This document shows positions 1,620 to 46,536 of a DNA stretch of 55,282 nt, piece after piece. The position numbers and the translations under genes were made by a program. Positions within the stretch are counted from its first letter, which is position 1, and the number at the start of each line of letters is the position of its first letter. Source of the DNA: Zygnema cylindricum. Its lineage: Eukaryota; Streptophyta; Zygnematophyceae; Zygnematales; Zygnemataceae. The notes beneath the pieces were generated by a model. It did no database searches and was not told the origin of the DNA. It was given only the letters and a program-made list of their open reading frames with translations. Where the stretch lies: assembly GCA_037447655.1 (NCBI GenBank), contig JBBHKE010000779.1:110813-166094 (forward strand), given 5' to 3'.

Positions 1620-2503
1620 TTTCTCAGAAGGTGCGGCAAATCTTCACAAAAAAGTAATGGTCTGTGATTAAAAACTGCATGTTTCAGTAGGTAACACTGT
1701 CCTCTATAAATAACACGACAGTTACACTTCATTCATTTAACTACTTATATTGTTTAGTTTGTTCCCTTCATGATCAGTTGAGTCATTTTTCGTCCTTGTA
1801 GAAGTTCTCGTAAAAACTATTACACATGGTAGAAAATAAATAAAAATAGAAGTAACAACAATAGATTTGTATGTAGATAGCTCTTACATTCGGTGAAGAA
1901 AGTTCATAAACAGGTTTAAGCAGCGATTGAGACCATGTCTTTTTTCACACTTAACAAATTTTGTTTTCAAATTTTTGATTGACTGTTCATTGCCTCGCGC
2001 AACACAGTTTTTGTAAGTCACTGATCTTCAGTCACTCACTCAGTAGCCCAGATTTGAAAACGCAAAAAGAAAAGTGAGGCCTGATCGTCAAAATAGAAAA
2101 TCAGTTGTGAAAGAAATTTGTTTTGTAACCGAAAAAGTTGGAGTCTAGACTGTCACAGAAAATAGGTCAGGGTTTCCAAGACGCATAAGTTTTCCATCCC
2201 TTCAAAGAAAAAATTAGGGTTTCGAAAATTGCGTCAACGCACAAGGCATTGAGACACCTTAGCCGAAAGATTGGGACATTTGAACTTTAGCTTGGAAATT
2301 AGAAGGAATTTAGGCTTTAGTTAGAAAGTGTTGTCTTTGAAGATTCAGTTTCGTGCGTGCGTGCGCGTGTTTGCGTGCGTGCGCGTGTTTGAGTGCGTAC
2401 GTAATTACCGGAAGTAATGTGGTGGTTCGAATGGAGGTTCGAATGGAGTTGCGGATTGGGGGAGTAAATGTACGGGTTAAATTAAAGGGACGTGAGGGAC
2501 TAA
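1620..2503. other. Spacer with a short GTGCGTGC repeat
   Basis: No coding frame is supported. At 2,353-2,402 a unit of about 20 bp, GTGCGTGCGTGCGCGTGTTT, is present about twice. The remainder is AT-rich and could be promoter sequence for the possible minus-strand exon at 1,428-1,619, but I see no distinctive element. Confidence 0.4.
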
Positions 2504-2590
2504 GGGCGTGTTCCCATGTAGCCGAAACTTTGAAACGTTACTTTGGATTTTAGTGCAGATTTTACGGTGTACTTTTCAAAGTGTTCCTAT

Positions 2591-3544
2591 GGGTACGTCC
2601 CCATGTATTAAAGTATCGACTTTAATCTGTCTTTTCACCGAAAACGCAGTTCCGTACGAGAAAAACTTTAGCCGTACAAAAAAAACAATTCTTTAAAAGT
2701 ACAGCAATCCTCAAGTCGATACTTTGAATGTACTTCATGTTTATCGTCGTGTGAACGCATTTTGGCGTTTTCCTTTTTTCGACCCCCGGGCAAGAGAATC
2801 CAGCCCCTCAAAAAACTTCATCAAAAATCACCTCGCGACCCGATTTCAGGAAAAGTACCGCCCAAACAACGAATGAAAAATGACCCACCCACACGCCACA
2901 CGAGTGGGAAAATTTTAGGACGAGGGAGAGTACTCGCTATTTTTCTCCCTGCCCGTCACGTGCATGTACGGAAAAGACGAGGATGTACGGAAAAAAATCT
3001 GCAGGGGTCTCGGACCTCCAATTTCATTCATGGGTCCTCGGTAGAATTTTGCATCGTCGTCGCCTCTCCCCTCTCCCTCTCACACTATCACTTTTATCTC
3101 TCACTTTTTAGAATGAGGCACGACAAAACTGGTATGAAATGAAAGATATTTGAAAAATAATTCTTTTGACTACCTTTATGTATATTTTTATGGCAAGTAG
3201 AGCGAAAAAAGTTTAGAAAACGAAATCGGGTATCCATGGCCGAAAGTTCTTGAATATGTGATATCACAAGTGAGCGTGAAGTCACAATCTTACAAAACCC
3301 TAAACATCTGCCATGTCACAAAATTACAAAAATGTAGATGTCTACAACTGTCGTTGTTTTTGTTGGCGTCAACAATTTCGTAGTCGTCGTCAACCGTCAC
3401 AAAGTTGTACCTACGTCTACAACCGTCACATTTCAAAGTTCCCATTCCATTTTCGCACATAGGGACGCTTTTCAAAGTAGTACGGAAGACTTCACTACAG
3501 TCCAAAATACTTTTTCAATGTATCGCTCACATGGGGACGTACCC
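2591..3544 (+). repeat. Repeat B, copy 1
   Basis: This 954-bp repeat has inverted ends GGGTACGTCCCCATGT / ACATGGGGACGTACCC and a TAT triplet on each side, so it may itself be a Harbinger-like insertion nested in E0. It matches the copy at 8,991-9,936 along most of its length with many substitutions; shared landmarks include TTTTAGGACGAGGGAGAGT-type sequence near 2,925 and a CCCTAAAC segment near 3,297. It has no protein-coding content. A third, inverted partial copy lies immediately to the right. Confidence 0.7.
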
Positions 3545-3599
3545 TATGTCAATCATTACTTGCGCCTTTATTACTTCAAATATGTGACATGTGTAGACG

Positions 3600-4260
3600 T
3601 CTACAAAATATGCGGCAGCCTACGATAGTACGAAACGAAATGTAGACGACTACGAAACTTCCTAAAATTAGTGACGTTTACAAAAACGGCGACGGTTGTA
3701 GGCGTCGAGTTTTTGTGACATTGTAGATGTTTAGGGTTTTGTGACATCGCGAAGTCATGCTTCTGTACCTTACGAAGTCATGCTACCTTGTGACGTCATC
3801 AACACGTAAACTTTCCGCCATGGCTTTTCGATTTCTTTTTCTTACCATTAATCATTCAATACGCCATCAAAATGAGATCCAAAATATAAAAAAAAAGGCA
3901 AAAAATATATCTTTCATTTGATACTATTATTGCTGCATTTCATTTAGAGATGAGAGAAAGAGGAGCGGTCGAATGAAAAAGATGGGGAGAGACAAGGACG
4001 TTGTAAATTTTTGCAAAGGACCCATGAATGAAAGTGGAGGTCCAAGACCCCAACAATTTTTTTCCGTACATGCTCGTCATTTTTTGTACGTACATGCGCG
4101 TGACGAGCATGGAAAAAAATATCGTGTACTCTCCCTCGTTCAAAAATTGTCGAAGACGCTTCACGCGTGCAATACATGCTTTAGATTCGTCGATAGGGTG
4201 TTATTTTGGTTAAAATCAGGTCGCGATTTGATTCCAGTGCAAGTGTGAAGATGAGCTGGA
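3600..4260 (-). repeat. Repeat B, inverted partial copy 3
   Basis: Read on the minus strand, this segment follows the same order of landmarks as repeat B copies 1 and 2: a CGCGACCTGATTTT block, an ACGAGGGAGAGTACACG block, a TCGGACCTCC-like block, then the CCCTAAACATCTAC block. It lacks the GGGGACGT terminal repeat. Copies 1 and 3 face each other within E0, so this stretch could fold into a long imperfect hairpin. Confidence 0.65.
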
Positions 4261-4440
4261 AGTGGGTCGCGATGACAATAACCCCAAATTGTCGTACCTT
4301 CCAAGTTCCAAGAGGACGCAAATTGTACTTCTGTTTTTGCCCATTTTTCGTACGACGTAATATTTTCTCGTTGGAAGTCCCATTTTATGTGAAAACGACG
4401 GAAAACAACCCTTACTTGAACACATGGGAACCCGCCCTAA

Positions 4441-5202
4441 GGGTAGAATTCCATTAGACGAAAAGTGTGGTTCGTTACTGGATGTCGTACGTTTATGTAC
4501 AGCGCCGTACCAGGTCATACCCTTTTTTTTTTGTCAGACGAAATATCGTTACTGGAAAGCTGTCGGGAAGCTCCAATGATGTAGGCGTAATTCCTGGCCG
4601 TTGGATATTCCACTTTTTCAGATCCGCGAAAGCAATCGAGCACATCATCCAGTGTCACGATACTCTCCTCGCGAGGAGAGTTGTTCGATACTGGGTCGTG
4701 CACCATTGTGTACCATTGGTACACGTAAAAATGCAAAAAAATATCTGCTTTGAACAGATACAACAAACAAGCGATCACAGGTCTACACGTTGTACATGCC
4801 ATGTGCCTACGTCGTACAGTCCATGTGTCACCTGCCACCCTGGATGCAGGTGAGCCCACAATATTTTCGCACGGTCCGTCTGACATCCACCGAGATTCAA
4901 AGTTTGCCGCGTCTATTTGCCATTCCGTTTCAAAATTTTGATTTATATTTTCATAATCAAACATCTGGCCGCAAACTTTACGTACGAATCATTAACTACC
5001 CCCGGTCGTACAGATATCTCGTTCTGACTTTCCGTTTAAAATTTTTGTTTAAGAATTTCAAAATCTATTCTGTAACCTATATGGCGCCAATCATAATTGG
5101 GGAAAGTTTGTTATTGGCTCGACAAAATGGAATAGTCTTCTAGTAACGCTGCCAATATAATTTTCTGTACATTTACTGGGACCGCCAAATGGAATTCTAC
5201 CC
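4441..5202. mobile_element. Harbinger/Tourist-like MITE E1
   Basis: The 762-bp element has inverted ends GGGTAGAATTCCATTAG and (inverted) GGGTAGAATTCCATTTG, with TAA on the left and TAG on the right. It is related to E3, E4 and E6 in this window by end sequence and by interior blocks such as TACCATTGGTACACGT (4,708-4,725). A perfect 20-bp palindrome, ACTCTCCTCGCGAGGAGAGT, sits at about 4,663-4,682. No transposase is present. Confidence 0.7.
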
Positions 5203-5205
5203 TAG

Positions 5206-6647
5206 GGGTGAAGTTCCATCAAGGGAAAAGTGGCGTTTTTTACAGAAATCCGCAACTCTCCGTACCAAATCGTACCGCCTATTTTGTTTTTATAGGAAAA
5301 ACATCATTACAAAGAATCTTGCCGATACTCTCCAAAGGTCTTGGAGGTAATACTGGCCGTCAGATGTTCATCTGCGAGGAGTTAACTTCAATTTTCTCTG
5401 TTACACTCAACCCACCTCGAGGAGGTGGGTTGGCATATACAGAAAAAATTAAATTGTGACACGTTGGACAATTAACCTACGTGTCATGATGGAAAACCAA
5501 CAAAAAATCATAAGATTTGCATATGACACGCGATTTCCAAAATATAACCGAAAATAAAAACGAAATTTCGTAACATTCCCTCGTCACGCTATTTTCGGTA
5601 ACTTTTGTTCGTCACACTATTTCAAAGGACTTTCGTTATGTTCGAAAACTGAAACCCTAAAAAATGAGCTGGCGTACACTGGTGTCTGCAAAATGTATAA
5701 AAGTTTTGTCGTATCATTACTTCGTACGCAGGTACATGGTATGCAAGTCAAGATTTGAATTTAAGTTTGTCGCTGCTAAAAAATTGAAAGATATTCAATA
5801 TCGGATCGTAGCTTGCGTGGCGCGAGTCAATTTAAAACACGTGGCTTACAGACTCTACGTGAGGAAACGTCGACTCATAGCGTTGTTCCATTAGGCGCTG
5901 TCAGTAAATGTCAAAAAATCGTTTACTAAAGCGATTGTTCAATTGTGTCGGGCCTGTAACCTACATTTGTTTTGCGTGGCACATGTTGATTGGTCCACGT
6001 AATAGATGAATACGATTATGCTAATCTTCAAAGAATCTTTGAGTGCAAATTGCGACCACATATTTGTACCAGCGAAAGGTAAAAAGTGACTTGTACGACG
6101 TATTGAATGAAATTTGTACTGGCGGACGAAATGTAAGTTATGTAAAAGCGTACGAAAATGTCAGAATGGCTAGTGGATACCAACAGAAGCGTGAAACAAT
6201 ATCTTCTGTCAAAGATATTATTGCGGCTTCCGGTGGCCTCGCATCCTCCCTGGCGGAAGGCACATGTCATATGCGACGTGTACCCATGTGGTAGCACGGT
6301 CGTCATGGATATTTGTTCACTTTTCCACGAGGCACAACGGTATTTGTTCAGGCGCTGAGAATTGACCTACTTCGGGTCACTTGTTGCGAACTAAAAGTGT
6401 CAGACAACGTCGTATCCGATTATGCATCCGACGGTCCACGTTTACGCCCATGAACGTGGATAATCAAATCCTCATTCAGTAGCCTTGTTTTTCTGATATT
6501 TTTTTTTATTTTTGGTACAACACTGTACAAAACAGTATTGCTTTCAGTAAACAACATCATTTTTTCCCTAATGGAACCTTGCCCACAATCGACCCGGTTT
6601 GTAGAGTTTGTCGTACAATTACAGAAACGCATGATGGAACTTCACCC
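5206..6647. mobile_element. Harbinger/Tourist-like element E2
   Basis: The ends are GGGTGAAGTTCCATCA on the left and the same sequence inverted on the right (6,632-6,647), flanked by TAG and TAA. The element is 1,442 bp. A second, inner copy of a right-type end lies near 6,575-6,594, so the right side may be duplicated or carry a nested fragment. A hairpin with 11-bp arms, CAACCCACCTC and its complement around GAG, lies near 5,409-5,433. The segment near 6,240-6,330 matches the segment near 27,780-27,890 in E4. Confidence 0.6.
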
Positions 6648-6650
6648 TAA

Positions 6651-8867: not shown

Positions 8868-10060
8868 AGTACTTTCTGTCCGGTAAACTGAACAAAAAAA
8901 TTACGGGAATCTACCTCATTTTACGGGAAATGTACGGTGTTTTACGTAAAATGTACAAACTTTGACGAAAAGATACGTTGCACTTCGTAGGGGGTGTCCC
9001 CATGTTTTAAAGTACATACTTTTCTCTGTCTTTTTGCCCTAAAATTCAGGGAACTTTGACAAAAACTTTAGCCGTACGAGAAAATCGTTTTTACCAAAGT
9101 ACAGTGAACGTGAATTCATACTTTGAATGTAAGGCGTGTTTGTCGTCATGTGAACGCATTTTGGCGTTTTCCCCTTTTCGACCCCCAGGCAAGAGAATCC
9201 AGCCCAAAAAAAAACTTCATTTAAAATCACCTCGAGGAGGTGATTTTAGTTAAAGTACCGCCCAGACAGCGAATGAAAAACGACCAACGCGCGCGCCACA
9301 CGAGTGGGAAAATTTTAGGACGAAGGAGAGTCCTCGCTATTTTTCTCCGTCCCCGTCACGCGCTATGTACGGAAAAAAAATTCCAGGGGTCTCGGACCTC
9401 CACTTTCAATCATGGGTCCTTTGCAAAAAAATTCGCCATCGTCGCCTCTCCTCTCTCCCTCTCACACCATCGATTATATCTCACACTTTTCGAAATGAGA
9501 CACGACAACATTGGTATAAAATGAAAGATGTTTTAAAAATATTTATTTTTACAATTTTAGGTTTTTTTTTAATGGCAGGTCGAGTGAGAAAAGTAAAAAA
9601 ACGAATTCGGAAAACCATGGCGGAAAGTTCTTGAATGCGTGACGTCGACGTTGTCACAAGAGAGCGTGACGTCACTATGTCACCAAACCCTAAACGTCTA
9701 CAATTTCACAAAAATCTAGACGTCTACAACCGTCGCTGTTTTTGTTGGCGTCACTATTCGTCGGAAGTTTCGTAGTCGCCTTCAATCGTCACAATTTGTA
9801 CCTACGTCTACAACCGTCACGTGTCAAAGTTCCGATTTCATTTTTCGCACATTGGGACGCTCTTCAAAGTAGTACGGCGAATCTTCACTACAGTCCAAAA
9901 TACTTTATCAAAGTACCGATTACATGGGGACACCCCTTAGTACTTCTTGTCCGGTAAACTGAACGTAAATTTGACGGGAAATGTACGAAATTTTACGGAA
10001 TTATACAAAATTTTACCGAAAATGTACGGAATTTTACGAAAAAGACGTTGTAGTGTTGCA
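8868..10060. repeat. Direct repeats of about 115 bp bracketing repeat B copy 2
   Basis: A block starting CTGTCCGGTAAACTGAAC at about 8,876 and ending near ACGTTGCAC (about 8,983) recurs at 9,948-10,060, starting TTGTCCGGTAAACTGAAC and ending GTTGCACC. Both copies are rich in ACGGGAAATGTACG-like words. A diverged relative of the opening block is at 51,191 inside a hAT-like element. The arrangement of direct repeat, insertion and direct repeat resembles a miniature LTR element, or an insertion into a tandem repeat. I cannot separate the two. Confidence 0.5.
8991..9936 (+). repeat. Repeat B, copy 2
   Basis: This is the second copy of the roughly 950-bp repeat at 2,591-3,544, in the same orientation, with inverted ends GGGGTGTCCCCATG / CATGGGGACACCCC. 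Near its left third it carries a hairpin absent from copy 1: AAAATCACCTC and its complement around GAG at 9,223-9,247. It is non-coding. Confidence 0.7.
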
Positions 10061-25006: not shown

Positions 25007-25510
25007 TTAAAGCCGTGATTGTCCAAACAGGCCTGTTGCTCCTTTCACCGGGACTACTCGTAATTTTTCTTCGTCCTTCTGGACCTTCTTAGGAACTGAA
25101 ACTACTAGCAATCCATTATCACAAACTGCACTTATCTTTCCAATGTCAACATTATCTGGCAGCCGAAACTTCCTTGTAACTGTTTTTTCTCTGTTTCTTT
25201 CAGTCAAAAGATAAAAATCACTAGATTCCTTCTTCTGTTCCTCTTCCTTCTTGACTGCTTGTAAACGTAAAACGCGACCTAACTGCACTTGAACTTCCAC
25301 ATCCTCCTTCCTAGCTCCAGGAACCTCAGCATAAAGGATAAAGGCACGGTTTGTCTCCTTAATATCAACAGGCATGGCTTGATTGCTCAACCGACTCAAC
25401 ATCATTTTGCCAAAAAGTGAATCTGTATCAACGAGACGTGACAAATCAGACTCAGAATGTTTTCTTTCGCCTTTTTGCACCGAGTCAACAATGTTTGCAG
25501 GTATTGCCAT
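25007..25510 (-). CDS. Small heat-shock protein (HSP20 family), cytosolic-type
   Basis: An uninterrupted 167-residue frame carries an alpha-crystallin domain at about residues 46-142. It begins MPVDIKETNRAFILYAEVPG, has the loop TERNREKTVTRKFRLPDNVD (about 103-122), and ends with the hallmark DNGLLVVSVPK (131-141). A V-V-P-V segment near 152-155 may stand in for the usual C-terminal I-x-I oligomerisation motif. These ATP-independent chaperones form oligomers that hold unfolding clients. There is no signal or transit peptide, so a cytosolic location is likely. The N-terminal arm is diverged from the canonical class I MSLIP start. The lack of introns is typical of this family. A gapped heat-shock element lies about 100 bp upstream. 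Confidence 0.93.
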   Translation of the reverse strand: MAIPANIVDSVQKGERKHSESDLSRLVDTDSLFGKMMLSRLSNQAMPVDIKETNRAFILYAEVPGARKEDVEVQVQLGRVLRLQAVKKEEEQKKESSDFYLLTERNREKTVTRKFRLPDNVDIGKISAVCDNGLLVVSVPKKVQKDEEKLRVVPVKGATGLFGQSRL

Positions 25511-25605
25511 GGCTGAGAGGCCACAGACGTGTGATCAATTAGGTCAATTAATTATTTTTGTCATACCTACAGTTGAATTATCTCTAGTTTGGCAATGGGA
25601 GCTTT

Positions 25606-25629
25606 GAATGTTCCAAGGATTCTTTCGAA
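25606..25629 (-). promoter_or_regulatory. Candidate heat-shock element
   Basis: The sequence GAATGTTCCAAGGATTC contains a perfect GAAnnTTC pair (25,606-25,613) and another TTC exactly 10 bp on, as expected for a gapped heat-shock factor site. It lies about 95 bp upstream of the HSP20 start codon, a normal distance. An AT-rich stretch at about 25,545-25,560 could serve as TATA region. This is inferred from sequence only. Confidence 0.55.
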
Positions 25630-26009
25630 AATACAAATTGAGAGGGAGCGTTGGGAAGCTATCCAGCCAAAAAGCGAAGCTACGTCACACAATCTTGAGT
25701 GGATCAACTGTAAGAATTGGTGACGTACACATTGACTACGTTTCTAGAAGCGGAAAGAATATCCGCAAAAGATCTTTAACCTATTTAAGTATTTATATTA
25801 TATTTCGTATTGTAGCGTATTTCCTTTGATTTCGGGACCATAAATAGGAAAATCGTACCGAATGGAGAATTGGATTTATGACGAAAGGTACTGTAGAGAA
25901 CAAAATCAGATCCAGTCATCTTTCTAGAACTAATGACATGCTGACGTATGCATGAACATCTTTCTGCATCATGATTGCAGGCTGACGCCATTAGTGTTAA
26001 ATAATTTTT
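25630..26009. other. Spacer upstream of the heat-shock gene
   Basis: No gene is seen. It ends with TAATTTTT at 26,002-26,009, the left copy of the 8-bp target duplication of the foldback element that follows. Confidence 0.5.
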
Positions 26010-26698
26010 GGGAATTGATCATGACAGTGACTGTTTTGGTTGCGCACAGTCACTTACGTCATTTTTTCAAATATTGTACAGTTGAAGTACATACTGGTAC
26101 AAATAAAGTACCGTTGAATACAAATTTGACGGTCAATCGGTTGAACAACTTTGACTTTCAAAATATTTCAACCGGTTAAAATTTTGTCGCGCTTGCGAAC
26201 GTCGACCGTCATAATAAAATTAGCAATTCACACGGCCGGCGAACGTTTACGGTAACAAAACTGCGGCAACCACATGTAAATAAAATGGTTGCATACAGTC
26301 ACTTTTTGTCTTTACGTGAAGTGAGAGCACTTAGCCGCAAAATTGAAATTTAATCGTGTAAGCGTTACATTGAACTTAGACGCAAATTGAAACGAAACCT
26401 CTTTAAATTAAACTGAACTACTGTAAGTTTTGTACGGAAATATTAAAACGCACGAAACAAAATTTTGCTGTCAATGTAAGAATGTTGAATCGTAGATAGT
26501 GTGGCTCGATTTCGTCGCGCGTGACGACGCGCATTTTTTTCATTTAATTTCAATTGATATTTTTACGCCGGTCCGTTTTATTATAGTGAACAAAGTTTAT
26601 TTCGTTTCGTGCGGTTTAATATTTCCGTACAATACTTATAGTACTTTAGTTTAAAGAGGTTTCGTTTCATTTTGCGTCTAAGTTCAATGTAACGCTTA

Positions 26699-27413
26699 GG
26701 GTGAATCTCCATCAGGCGAAAAGTGGGGTTCTTTATTTTAAAAAGTGTACTTTCGTACAGATCCAGCTCATTTTCGTACAGAGACGTACTGATTTTATAT
26801 ATATACTTTTTTAAACATGATTGCTGTCGGCGCGTCAGCAAGATTCTCCAAACTTCTGGGCGACAACGTCGACCGTCCGATTACGTGTTTTCGAAGCAAG
26901 CGGTCACGTCGTCCAGTGATTAATTACTCTCTTCAAGAGGAGAGTCATCAATCACCGGACGTGTAAAATGTTTACGCGTGGAAAGGTGACGTACGGGCCG
27001 CGCGCCTTCGGACAGGTGGGAATCAAATCCAACGAAAACCACCAAAAAAAAAATTTGTTGAAGAATGTGTCGTGACGCCTCCTCCACGATCCGCTGACAT
27101 CCGGAATTTATGGCGCCACGACGAAACACGAACGACAAATCAGCTACAAAAAATACAAAACACGAACGTACAGATTGTACATTCACGTAATTTAATTTTG
27201 CGACTGGATGTACAGATACAAGTCCAGATAATTGTGCTTTTGGAATCTTTGACTGCTCGTCGTCAGAATATGAACCTACGTGCGTCCAATCGAAAGAAAG
27301 CACGTACGCGATAGATTCCATTTCTGACACGACCTGATGGAGAAGTGAACGAAGTATTACTGCCAGTAAACGTTTCCGTACGATTACTGTCGGCGCTTGA
27401 TGGAGGGTTACCC
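26699..27413. mobile_element. Harbinger/Tourist-like MITE E3, nested
   Basis: The ends are GGGTGAATCTCCATCAGGCG on the left and GGGTAACCCTCCATCAAGCG (inverted) on the right, with TTA at 26,696-26,698 and 27,414-27,416. It interrupts the right arm of the foldback element. The left arm at 26,359-26,361 has the single uninterrupted triplet. A near-palindrome ACTCTCTTCAAGAGGAGAGT lies at about 26,926-26,945, in the same place in the element as the palindrome of E1. Confidence 0.85.
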
Positions 27414-27444
27414 TTACACGATTAAATTTCAATTTTGCGACTAA

Positions 27445-28141
27445 GGGTGGACTTCCATTAGACGTCCCAGTAATTGTACGGAAAATTTTACTGAAGGGCG
27501 TGCCTTCTATTAGGTCGCGTCTGTAAACCTGCGTGGCTCATTCTGGTTGGTAACACGTAGGTTAATATTCGATGCTTAAAATCTAGAAAGAATCTTCGAA
27601 TGCAATGTCAGAACGCAATATCTGTACGAGTGGAAGTAATATCTGTACCAGCAGAGATAATATCTGTACCAGCGGAGGTAATTAATGACTCGTACAGAGG
27701 GCATTAAATGTACTACCCAAAATTTCAAAACGCAACGACAAAAAGGCGGCGGCAAACTTTGATGGTGGGGAGCGTGACGGAATAATTTCGGCGGATTCGC
27801 AGCCACCCTGGCGGAAGGCACATGGCCCTTGCGACGTGTACGCACATACGCGCGCGCTCATCGTGGATTCTATATACCTTTTCCACGCGGCCTATTTTTA
27901 CACGTTCTGTATTCGAGAATTGTCCTCACTGTGCACGGTCTTAGAAAACTGTAGGTTGATGACGTGGCGTCACGGATAAAAAGTGTAATAAAAATCGGAC
28001 GGTCCTAATTTACGCCTACAACCTTGGACAATTTTCTGTAATGTTGTTTTCGTTGAAAAAAATAAGATTCTGTACGAACCTGTACGAAACGGTACGGCCC
28101 TCAGTAAAAAACCTCACTTTTTCGCTAATGGAAGTCCACCC
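27445..28141. mobile_element. Harbinger/Tourist-like MITE E4, nested
   Basis: The inverted ends are GGGTGGACTTCCATTAG, identical over 17 bp, flanked by TAA on both sides. It is inserted in the right arm of the foldback element. Its interior shares with E2 the segment CCCTGGCGGAAGGCACATG and the following GCGACGTGTAC word. Its right TAA doubles as the left TAA of E5. Confidence 0.88.
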
Positions 28142-28144
28142 TAA

Positions 28145-28782
28145 GGGTATGGTTACATCAGGCGGTCTCTGTAATAGTACGGACAGCAAAATTTCTGTAT
28201 TACAGAGGCCTCGATTACATCGCGTATCGTCTGCAAACAAGTTTTTACATACGTGTTCTGATTTGAGTGGTTCCACGTAAGTCGACTATCAAATCTCTAA
28301 AATCGTCAAAGATTTGAAAACCGACCATTTTCGTATGTAAATACGTACTTACGTCTTCCGTACGTGTACTTCGCAAGTGTACCACGTCAATGTACCTCAG
28401 AGATCTCCTTCACTCTGCTGACTTTCAGGAAAAAACCGTATTTCTTTTCGGCAAAGATTTTACGGTCACCTTGTCCGAAGGCACGTGACTTTGGGGGCGT
28501 GTGAAAATTTTCATTTTTCATCGACGCGTGTCTATCGTCCAGGTGTAGCGAACTGACAGGTTCTGGGTTCACCAATACAGAGGCGTATGGAGCGATTGCT
28601 TCGCAGATGAAGACCAAAATGTAATTGGACGGTCGACGTCTTCACCCGGATACTTGGAGAATCGTAATCTAATTTTCTGTAATGTTGTTTTCAAGAAACT
28701 CACGAAAATGTAGTACGGGATGGTACGGACAAGTACAAAATTCTGTATTAAACCTCACTTTTCGTCTGATGTAACCATACCC
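28145..28782. mobile_element. Harbinger/Tourist-like MITE E5, nested
   Basis: The inverted ends are GGGTATGGTTACATCAG, identical over at least 17 bp, flanked by TAA. It lies head-to-tail with E4 and shares one TAA triplet with it. It has no coding frame. The intact counterpart of the target is the single TTA at 26,331-26,333 of the opposite foldback arm. Confidence 0.88.
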
Positions 28783-29124
28783 TAAGTGCTCTCACCGTGG
28801 AGCTCACGTAAAGACAAAAAGTGACTGTCTGCAACCATTTTATTTACATGTGGTTGCCACAGTTTTGTTACCGTAAACGTTCGCCGGCCGTGTGAATTGC
28901 TAATTTTATTATGACGGCCGACGTCCTCAAGCGCGGCAAAATTTTAAACGGTTGAAACAATATTTTGAAAGTCAAAGTTGTCCAACCGATTGACCGTCAA
29001 AATTTTACTCAACGGTACTTTATTTATACCAATATGTACTTCAAACGTACAATTTTTGACAAAGTGACGTAAGTGACTGTGCGCAACGAAAACAGTCACT
29101 GTCATGATCAATTCCCTAATTTTT

Positions 29125-29779
29125 TCGCCCCTTAATTTTTTTTTTCTGTGTACACACTTGTCCGATTTTCAATTTCAGACCGCCAATCGGAAGCTGAGAA
29201 CTTTGCCTTTCAATCGCAACCATCAGATCCACAATCCGACATGTGTGTACGAGGAAAGATGTTTTAAGTGGCAAAAAAAAACATTAACACTAATAGCGAT
29301 ACGCGGTGTAGAGTTGCGTATCCTACGACCTACATTGGTACAACGATTTAATCGAATTACGGATGCAGCCAATTCGGCTGGCAATCGATACGTTGAGTCG
29401 ATGCGATTTTCTGATGATTTTTTTATGTCGACCTGTCGACAAATTCTACCACGGAGTTCGAAAATTTATTTTTCAGAGATATTTTTTTTCATACCAAAAT
29501 TTCTATGTTTCATTCCAGGAAGAGGGAGGTGGACAGGCCATGGTGGTTGAGACTTCAGCTCTCGAGGTTGTTGACGTTTAGGTTTGAAGAGGAAATGGCA
29601 TGACTTGCGAAAAAAGGAAGACGACAAACTGAAGTACATACCAGGCTCCAGGATGACTAAATTGTACTTCGGCCTCCTCACTTTCTTAGTAAGGCAACAA
29701 ATTTTCTCGGTGTGCAATCATTTTTTTGAGGAAAACGACAGAAAAGGACTTACTCAGGCACATTGGCGCATATCCTGAA
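29125..29779. other. Spacer, nothing clear
   Basis: AT-rich DNA. A word like GGCAAAAAAAAACATTAACAC near 29,272 matches the ends of the small MITE at 40,476-40,576, so a half element may be present. No gene is seen. Confidence 0.35.
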
Positions 29780-45423: not shown

Positions 45424-46536
45424 TAGTGTTGTGTATCGGGTAATTTTTTATCGCGATAAATCGAGTGAAACGATATATTGGTTACCGAACGGTCAAAGGG
45501 CCAGATATATTGCTCCGCAACCAACAATATATTTGTTGGGGGAGGGGAGGAACGTACCATAGGGAGATGGTTTACAGAATACGTACAAACTATTGTGACG
45601 GGGGGAGCTTTTGGAATTTTTTTCTTCAGTCCTTGCCGTAGCACAATATGATCTGCGGTACGAAAAGAAAGTACAAAATAAGTACGGATTTTTTCGCGAC
45701 GATGAGGGTGGCTTGAAATTGTTTTTCAGGAGTGAGGGTGAACTTCCATTAGAGGAAAAGTGGGGTTGTTTACTGGAATCCATACGATTTCGTACAGATT
45801 CGTACCATTTTTTTTTGTCAAACGAAACATGATGAAACATGTCTACTGGATGGGCTCCAATATTATAGGCGTAAGTATCGACCGTTGGATTTTTCACTTT
45901 TTTAGATTCGCAAGGTAATCACGCACATCGTCCAGTTTGGAAAGACTCTCATCGGCGAGGTGAGTTTCTTTAGACTCCTCGCGTACCATTGGTACACGTG
46001 AAAAGTTAAAAAAAAATCCACCACCAACAGGCAATGAGAATCGAACACGTCGTAAACGCCATGTGCCTTCCGCCACAGTGTATGAAGGTCGACCGAAATA
46101 TCTTCACACACTACTTCTGACATCCGCTGACCTTAAAAGTTTGCGGCGCCTTTTTGACAATCCGTTTCGAAGTTTTGATTTTCAATTTCAAAATTAAAAT
46201 CTGGTCGCAAAATTTTCGCACAAATCATTAACTACCTCCGCCCGTACAAATATTAGGTACATATTTTCAGCTTGAATAATATTTCTATATATTAAGAATC
46301 TGAAAATTAACCTAAGTGGCGCCAATCATAATTGAGAAACGATGTCTACTGGCACGACATAATGGAAGGTCGTGCCAGTAACCACTAGAAATAGAAGCAT
46401 CCGCATGTTTACTGGGACCGCCCAATGGACTAGAAATAGATGTATCCGCATGATTACTGGGACCGCCTAATGGAGAACAGGCCTCATCGCGATAAATATC
46501 GGTCCGAAGTTTTTATTGCGATGTATCGGTACTGAT
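45424..46536. mobile_element. Decayed hAT-like element with nested E6
   Basis: The left end TAGTGTTGTGTATCGGGTAA is nearly the same as that of the element at 50,919. The right end, read inverted, is TAGTGCTATAAACCATCAGT followed by a GATACATCGCAATAAA segment. I found no matching 8-bp target duplication, so the right end has decayed or been truncated. It is interrupted by E6. Confidence 0.55.
45736..46477. mobile_element. Harbinger/Tourist-like MITE E6, right end degenerate
   Basis: The left end is GGGTGAACTTCCATTAGAGG, preceded by TGA. The interior follows E1: TACCATTGGTACACGTGA near 45,986 and GGCGCCAATCATAATTGAG near 46,318 correspond to blocks of E1. The right end contains two tandem 46-bp units (46,383-46,428 and 46,429-46,474), each ending ACTGGGACCGCC(C/T)AATGG. 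Only the last few bases of the terminal repeat remain. Confidence 0.55.

Follow-up and report, generated by a model that had tools for sequence, protein, structure and literature searches.

A foldback element whose unbroken arm retains the empty sites of insertions in the opposite arm

In the stretch of DNA analysed here (the window, 55,282 nucleotides) we found a foldback element at positions 26,010-29,116, composed of an unbroken left arm, a 135-bp loop and a right arm that is interrupted by three inverted-repeat elements, E3, E4 and E5 (Table 1). The arm sequence was present in two copies before E3 and E4/E5 were inserted. The best overall explanation is very probably that the foldback arms existed first and that PIF/Harbinger-like elements then inserted at two triplets of the right arm.

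Table 1. Positions of the foldback element, its inserts and a second chain of elements in the window.
Feature	Positions	Strand	Remarks
Left copy of 8-bp target-site duplication (TSD)	26002..26009	+	TAATTTTT
Left arm	26010..26463	+	continuous; from self-comparison and arm alignment
Empty counterpart of E4/E5 site	26331..26333	+	left arm; one triplet (TTA on +)
Empty counterpart of E3 site	26359..26361	+	left arm; one triplet (TAA on +)
Loop between arms	26464..26598	+	135 bp; from self-comparison
Right arm, inner piece	26599..26698	-	up to and including left TTA of E3
TTA triplets flanking E3	26,696-26,698 and 27,414-27,416		
E3	26699..27413	+	715-bp inverted-repeat element; TIR 14/18 identical; TSD TTA
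Right arm, middle piece	27414..27444	-	right TTA of E3 to left TAA of E4
TAA triplets flanking E4	27,442-27,444 and 28,142-28,144		
E4	27445..28141	-	697-bp inverted-repeat element; TIR 17/18; TSD TAA; family-forward on - strand
Single TAA common to E4 and E5	28142..28144	+	
E5	28145..28782	-	638-bp inverted-repeat element; TIR 17/18; TSD TAA
TAA triplets flanking E5	28,142-28,144 and 28,783-28,785		
Right arm, outer piece	28783..29116	-	begins with right TAA of E5
Right copy of 8-bp target-site duplication	29117..29124	+	TAATTTTT
E1	2504..4437	+	1,934 bp; TAA on both sides; first of second chain
E2	4441..5202	+	762 bp; related to E4; separated from E1 by one TAA
E2b	5206..6647	+	1,442 bp; related to E4; separated from E2 by one triplet (TAG); TAA follows

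Structure and ends of the foldback element

Self-comparison of positions 25,601-29,600 returned the inverted pairs 26,007-26,334 / 28,782-29,119 and 26,359-26,463 / 26,599-26,698, and as a third pair the 39-bp middle piece, 26,330-26,368 / 27,407-27,445. The right arm was defined as 26,599-29,116 minus the inserts; E3, E4 and E5 were deleted with one triplet each, and the left arm was aligned to the reverse complement of the right arm. The reduced element was 1,048 bp long, of which the arms (454 and 459 bp) formed the bulk, as is characteristic of foldback elements. The full-length alignment of the arms comprised 421 matches, 28 mismatches and 15 gap columns in 3 gaps, with 93.8% identity over ungapped columns. 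Both junctions aligned without a gap and with no base extra or missing, and 65 of 66 aligned bases in the junction regions were identical with 0 inserted or lost, the sole mismatch lying two bases ahead of the E4 triplet (right arm A, left arm G). When the reduced element was folded as a single strand with RNA energy parameters, 423 of the 454 left-arm bases paired with the right arm. A preliminary description of this locus had claimed a continuous left arm at 26,010-26,461 and a right arm representing its inversion, split by the three elements. Both claims were borne out, and the measured end at 26,463, two bases further, is immaterial. The remove-and-fold check proposed there was carried out and gave arms of the above lengths pairing through both junctions around the loop. 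Neither failed pairing nor unmatched triplets, which had been named as speaking against the structure, were found, since the arms paired through the junctions and the triplets matched.

The arms differed by a 7-column gap (26319-26320 versus 28797-28803, GTGA-AGTGAG versus GTGAGCTCCACGGTGAG), located 11 bp from the E4/E5 triplet, which might represent a deletion or a filler insertion in either direction. Within the left arm, TGGTTGCGCACAGTCACTT (26037-26055) and TGGTTGCATACAGTCACTT (26286-26304) were alike at 17 of 19 positions by reading, and these repeats are possibly candidate transposase-binding motifs.

The foldback was flanked on each side by TAATTTTT, as expected of a target duplication, and both termini read GGGAATTGATC inward, directly adjoining this repeat. 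The match was 8 bp long and did not extend to 9. In simulations drawn from the adjoining 100 bases, a flank match 7 to 11 bp long occurred at a rate of 0.00015; because the flanks are AT-rich, the 8-bp repeat carries less weight than one in sequence of mixed composition would. A search for the initial 20 bases of the arm, allowing at most 3 mismatches, found them within the window at the two foldback ends only, with 0 expected. An inverted duplication of non-transposon origin that was later entered by MITEs would also fit an arm end without a further copy in the window and the lack of recognised coding sequence; we consider it very improbable, given that the arms end in GGG/CCC beside an exact 8-bp repeat which was reproduced in 0 of 20,000 of the local-flank simulations. 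Outside the foldback, on both sides, we noted a 24-bp inverted repeat of 79% identity (25986-26009, ATTAGTGTTAA; 29275-29298, TTAACACTAAT), for which no clear target duplication was seen by eye.

Insertions in the right arm and their empty sites

Each occupied site of the right arm showed one triplet more per inserted element than the corresponding empty site of the left arm, and the single left-arm triplets show the sites of the 3-bp TTA/TAA duplications in their empty state. They lay exactly at 26,359-26,361 and 26,331-26,333, as had been proposed, and the idea that the intact arm documents, within the element, how these sites look when empty was upheld. The further claim that each element duplicated TTA/TAA stood for E3; at the double site a single duplication would suffice if E4-TAA-E5 had arrived as a pre-formed dimer.

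All three elements were indeed located in the right arm, as the preliminary description had pointed out, which is not unusual: the probability of all hits falling in the same arm by chance is 0.25 for three independent hits and 0.5 for two. A bias towards one arm was rejected on these grounds. Since Tourist-like elements generally excise precisely, restoring one TSD copy (as stated in part of PMC4561436), the sites of the left arm may once have been occupied and later healed, instead of having always been empty. This scenario is highly implausible to us, as nothing in the left arm requires excision and the only nearby length difference between the arms is the 7-column gap, which is not at a triplet.

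Local pieces of sequence were common to E4 and E2, E2b, E5 and a copy at 45,736; to E5 and E2b, E3 and E4; and to E3 and E5, E2b and the 45,736 copy. Owing to these pieces, common to one another and to E2, E2b or the 45,736 copy, E3-E5 look like one extended family.

Order of events

The history that we propose starts with a non-autonomous foldback DNA transposon of 1,048 bp without inserts and with an 8-bp TSD, in what would be plant nuclear DNA. After formation of its arms, non-autonomous PIF/Harbinger-like (Tourist-like) elements would have entered two TTA/TAA triplets of the right arm, where a 3-bp staggered cut, once filled in, would have duplicated the triplet at each insertion. E4 and E5 finished with one TAA in common, presumably by one of the routes below, and the left arm retained both sites as single triplets. 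Of this history, the arms, inserts, triplets and flanking repeat are seen directly in the sequence; the superfamilies, the transposases and the way in which E4 and E5 came to be adjacent are inferred.

The preliminary description had further concluded that the foldback with its 8-bp duplication came first and the MITEs followed. For the formation of the arms this order was supported, but the 8-bp duplication dates only the arrival of the element at this locus, which was possibly later, so the MITEs could have entered a parent copy earlier. In such a composite arrival a parent foldback at another site would have received the MITEs in its right arm, and this 3.1-kb element with its load would then have moved here, with the 8-bp duplication made last. 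The locus reads alike under both histories, and the comparison of the arms dates the MITEs relative to arm formation only. Mobility would be expected to be higher for a small foldback than for a 3.1-kb copy carrying inserts, and for PIF/Pong elements larger size is associated with less reinsertion in a passage of PMC10288884; we regard composite arrival as improbable.

Insertion of E4 first, insertion of E5 first and a single insertion of a dimer all yield a string identical to the one observed, and the order of E4 and E5 is thus irrecoverable; any ordering of the two was rejected. E4-TAA-E5 might have arrived as a ready-made dimer in one event, for which the outer ends of the pair would have served; these agree at 12 of 18 positions, and one such insertion gives exactly the observed string. 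MITE multimers have been reported in rice, where they account for 11% of MITEs (Jiang and Wessler 2001, as cited in PMC10664404). The own ends of E4 and E5 are better matched (17 of 18 each), so that each element looks able to move alone, and we hold dimer arrival to be rather unlikely.

Dating of the foldback by the 6.2% difference between its arms was rejected, because the arms of one element need not begin identical: the TIRs of the nematode Mutator/foldback family Tm1 are 93.15% identical on average, according to a section of PMC3169594.

Classification of the elements

The foldback is probably MULE-like. Its TSD of 8 bp compares with the usual 9 bp of MULEs; MULE TSDs range from 8 to 11 bp, and hAT and P elements have TSDs of 8 bp, so that this length fits those too. 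The loop is too small for a transposase, and the foldback would probably have been mobilised in trans by a MULE-type transposase. In the portion of PMC3169594 on Tm1, TSDs of 8-10 bp are given for 45 of 53 elements. No relatives of the foldback arm were found by blastn in plasmids, and its exact 24-base end was absent from the viral and prokaryote contigs searched, all of these being collections not expected to contain plants. That no foldback relative was found, and no transposase that would tie the foldback or E3-E5 to a superfamily, counts against these assignments.

Judged from their sequences, E3-E5 were best fitted as putative non-autonomous PIF/Harbinger (Tourist-like) elements. They carried the 3-bp duplications of this superfamily (TTA/TTA for E3, TAA/TAA for E4 and for E5, each single in the opposite arm) and GGGT TIRs agreeing with its range of about 14-25 bp (for E3, E4 and E5, respectively, 14, 17 and 17 of the first 18 bases were identical). 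Their lengths of 638-715 bp lie towards the upper limit of MITE sizes. When the window was searched for pairs of GGGT-type TIRs with TTA/TAA TSDs, 6 hits were obtained, two of them composite (E4+E5 and E2+E2b); when it was resampled 20 times with a first-order Markov model, 15 of the resamplings had 0 hits and 5 had 1. This search returned E1 and the composite 4,441-6,647 rather than E2 and E2b apart, and the latter were split by sequence reading and self-alignments. No transposase domain, and none that would link the elements to a relative with a DDE transposase and ORF1, was found in 10 ORFs scanned against Pfam, 5 of at least 8 from the foldback region and 5 from E1, E2, E2b and an E1 relative at 8,991-9,936. 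Weak Pfam matches were obtained for 3 of the 10 (E 0.017-0.085), each under its family cut-off, and no Rfam family reached threshold in the window.

The maize PIF target consensus is CWCTTAGWG; our literature search found no paper giving it. The E3 site matched this consensus at 6/9 positions, the E4/E5 site at 7/9 and the joined E1-E2b site at 7/9; the test is too small, and 8% of the TWA sites in the window score at least 7/9.

A second chain and joints of a single triplet

A second chain of elements at 2,501-6,650 reads TAA-E1-TAA-E2-TAG-E2b-TAA, and its single-triplet joints hint at insertion into one another's duplications. Nested within E2b there seems to be another element, at about 5,880-6,587, whose flanks are decayed. 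The E1 relative at 8,991-9,936, whose end triplets were unmatched (TAG and TTA on +), sits between two copies, 76% alike, of a direct repeat of about 112 bp (8868-10050). Another relative of E2 and E4 at 45736-46472 has lost its right end and bears a short tandem repeat. With their mismatched triplets and missing right end, respectively, these two copies count against a fully regular family.

The window held three one-triplet joints, E1-E2, E2-E2b (TAG) and E4-E5. Counting 7 elements (E1, E2, E2b, the 8,991 copy, E3, E4 and E5) and the 2,031 TWA triplets of the window, the chance of 3 such joints was about 7e-6, or 2e-5 with 8 elements; the estimate assumes uniform use of TWA, was made post hoc with the TAG joint counted, and is a guide only. 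It does not distinguish sequential insertion from movement of dimers. Tentatively, a PIF-like family might prefer the duplicated triplet of a resident relative, building chains joined by single TWA triplets, and if family members target each other's duplications, MITE multimers would be partly explained. If E4 was first, its right junction CACTTAGGG scores 8/9 against the maize target, compared with 7/9 for the original site, so that every insertion would leave a better target for the one that follows. With E5 first there is no gain (7 versus 7). The notion of target improvement therefore hinges on the E4/E5 order, which the locus does not reveal.

Neighbouring sequence

The sequence of the window resembles plant nuclear DNA: one ORF had a Zein-binding domain, which is a plant family, and another an Hsp20 domain. 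The latter, a small heat-shock ORF, lies on the - strand with its start at 25,510, which places the near end of the foldback 500 bp upstream. Between them, TTCTAGAA, which we take to be a heat-shock-element-like core, occurs at 25,742 and 25,922; as the 4.6 kb scanned contain five TTCnnGAA, no clear enrichment is evident.

Significance and comparison with known systems

Nested MITEs, foldback elements and comparisons with empty sites are established kinds of observation, and this locus is ordinary in kind. Its internal empty-site control is elegant and the reading of it accurate. The locus represents a clean demonstration, within itself, of 3-bp target duplication and relative age, and is useful for teaching and for checking transposon annotation, in which the pieces would otherwise be taken for one 3.1-kb repeat.

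Related empty sites (RESites) have been used to show insertion and TSD (in parts of PMC2213677 and PMC4486113). As with RESites, a paralogous empty copy serves here as the comparison; the difference is that the empty copy is supplied by the other arm of the element itself.

Among plant MULEs there are foldback families, FARE1 being one of them, and 9 nt is described as the typical TSD length of MULEs (both in passages of PMC4486113). The long inverted arms of the foldback resemble those of the FARE and MuTAnT elements of Arabidopsis and Medicago, and MuTAnT ends begin with GGGG, typical copies being short foldbacks, in the same source. Unlike these, the element described here has a TSD of 8 bp instead of 9, had no mudrA-like relative found and lies outside a TA microsatellite.

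E3-E5 and their relatives share with the PIF/Harbinger superfamily and Tourist-like MITEs the TIRs of about 14-25 bp, the 3-bp TTA/TAA duplications and the lack of recognised coding sequence, as far as the superfamily is outlined in part of PMC2213677. They differ in their size of 638-1,934 bp, in being mutually diverged and in that no transposase copy was seen. Like the MITE multimers of rice, cited in a passage of PMC10664404, the MITEs here are joined together. A possible difference from those multimers is that neighbours here have exactly one triplet in common; in addition, one chain is located within a foldback arm, and the partner of this arm retains the empty site.
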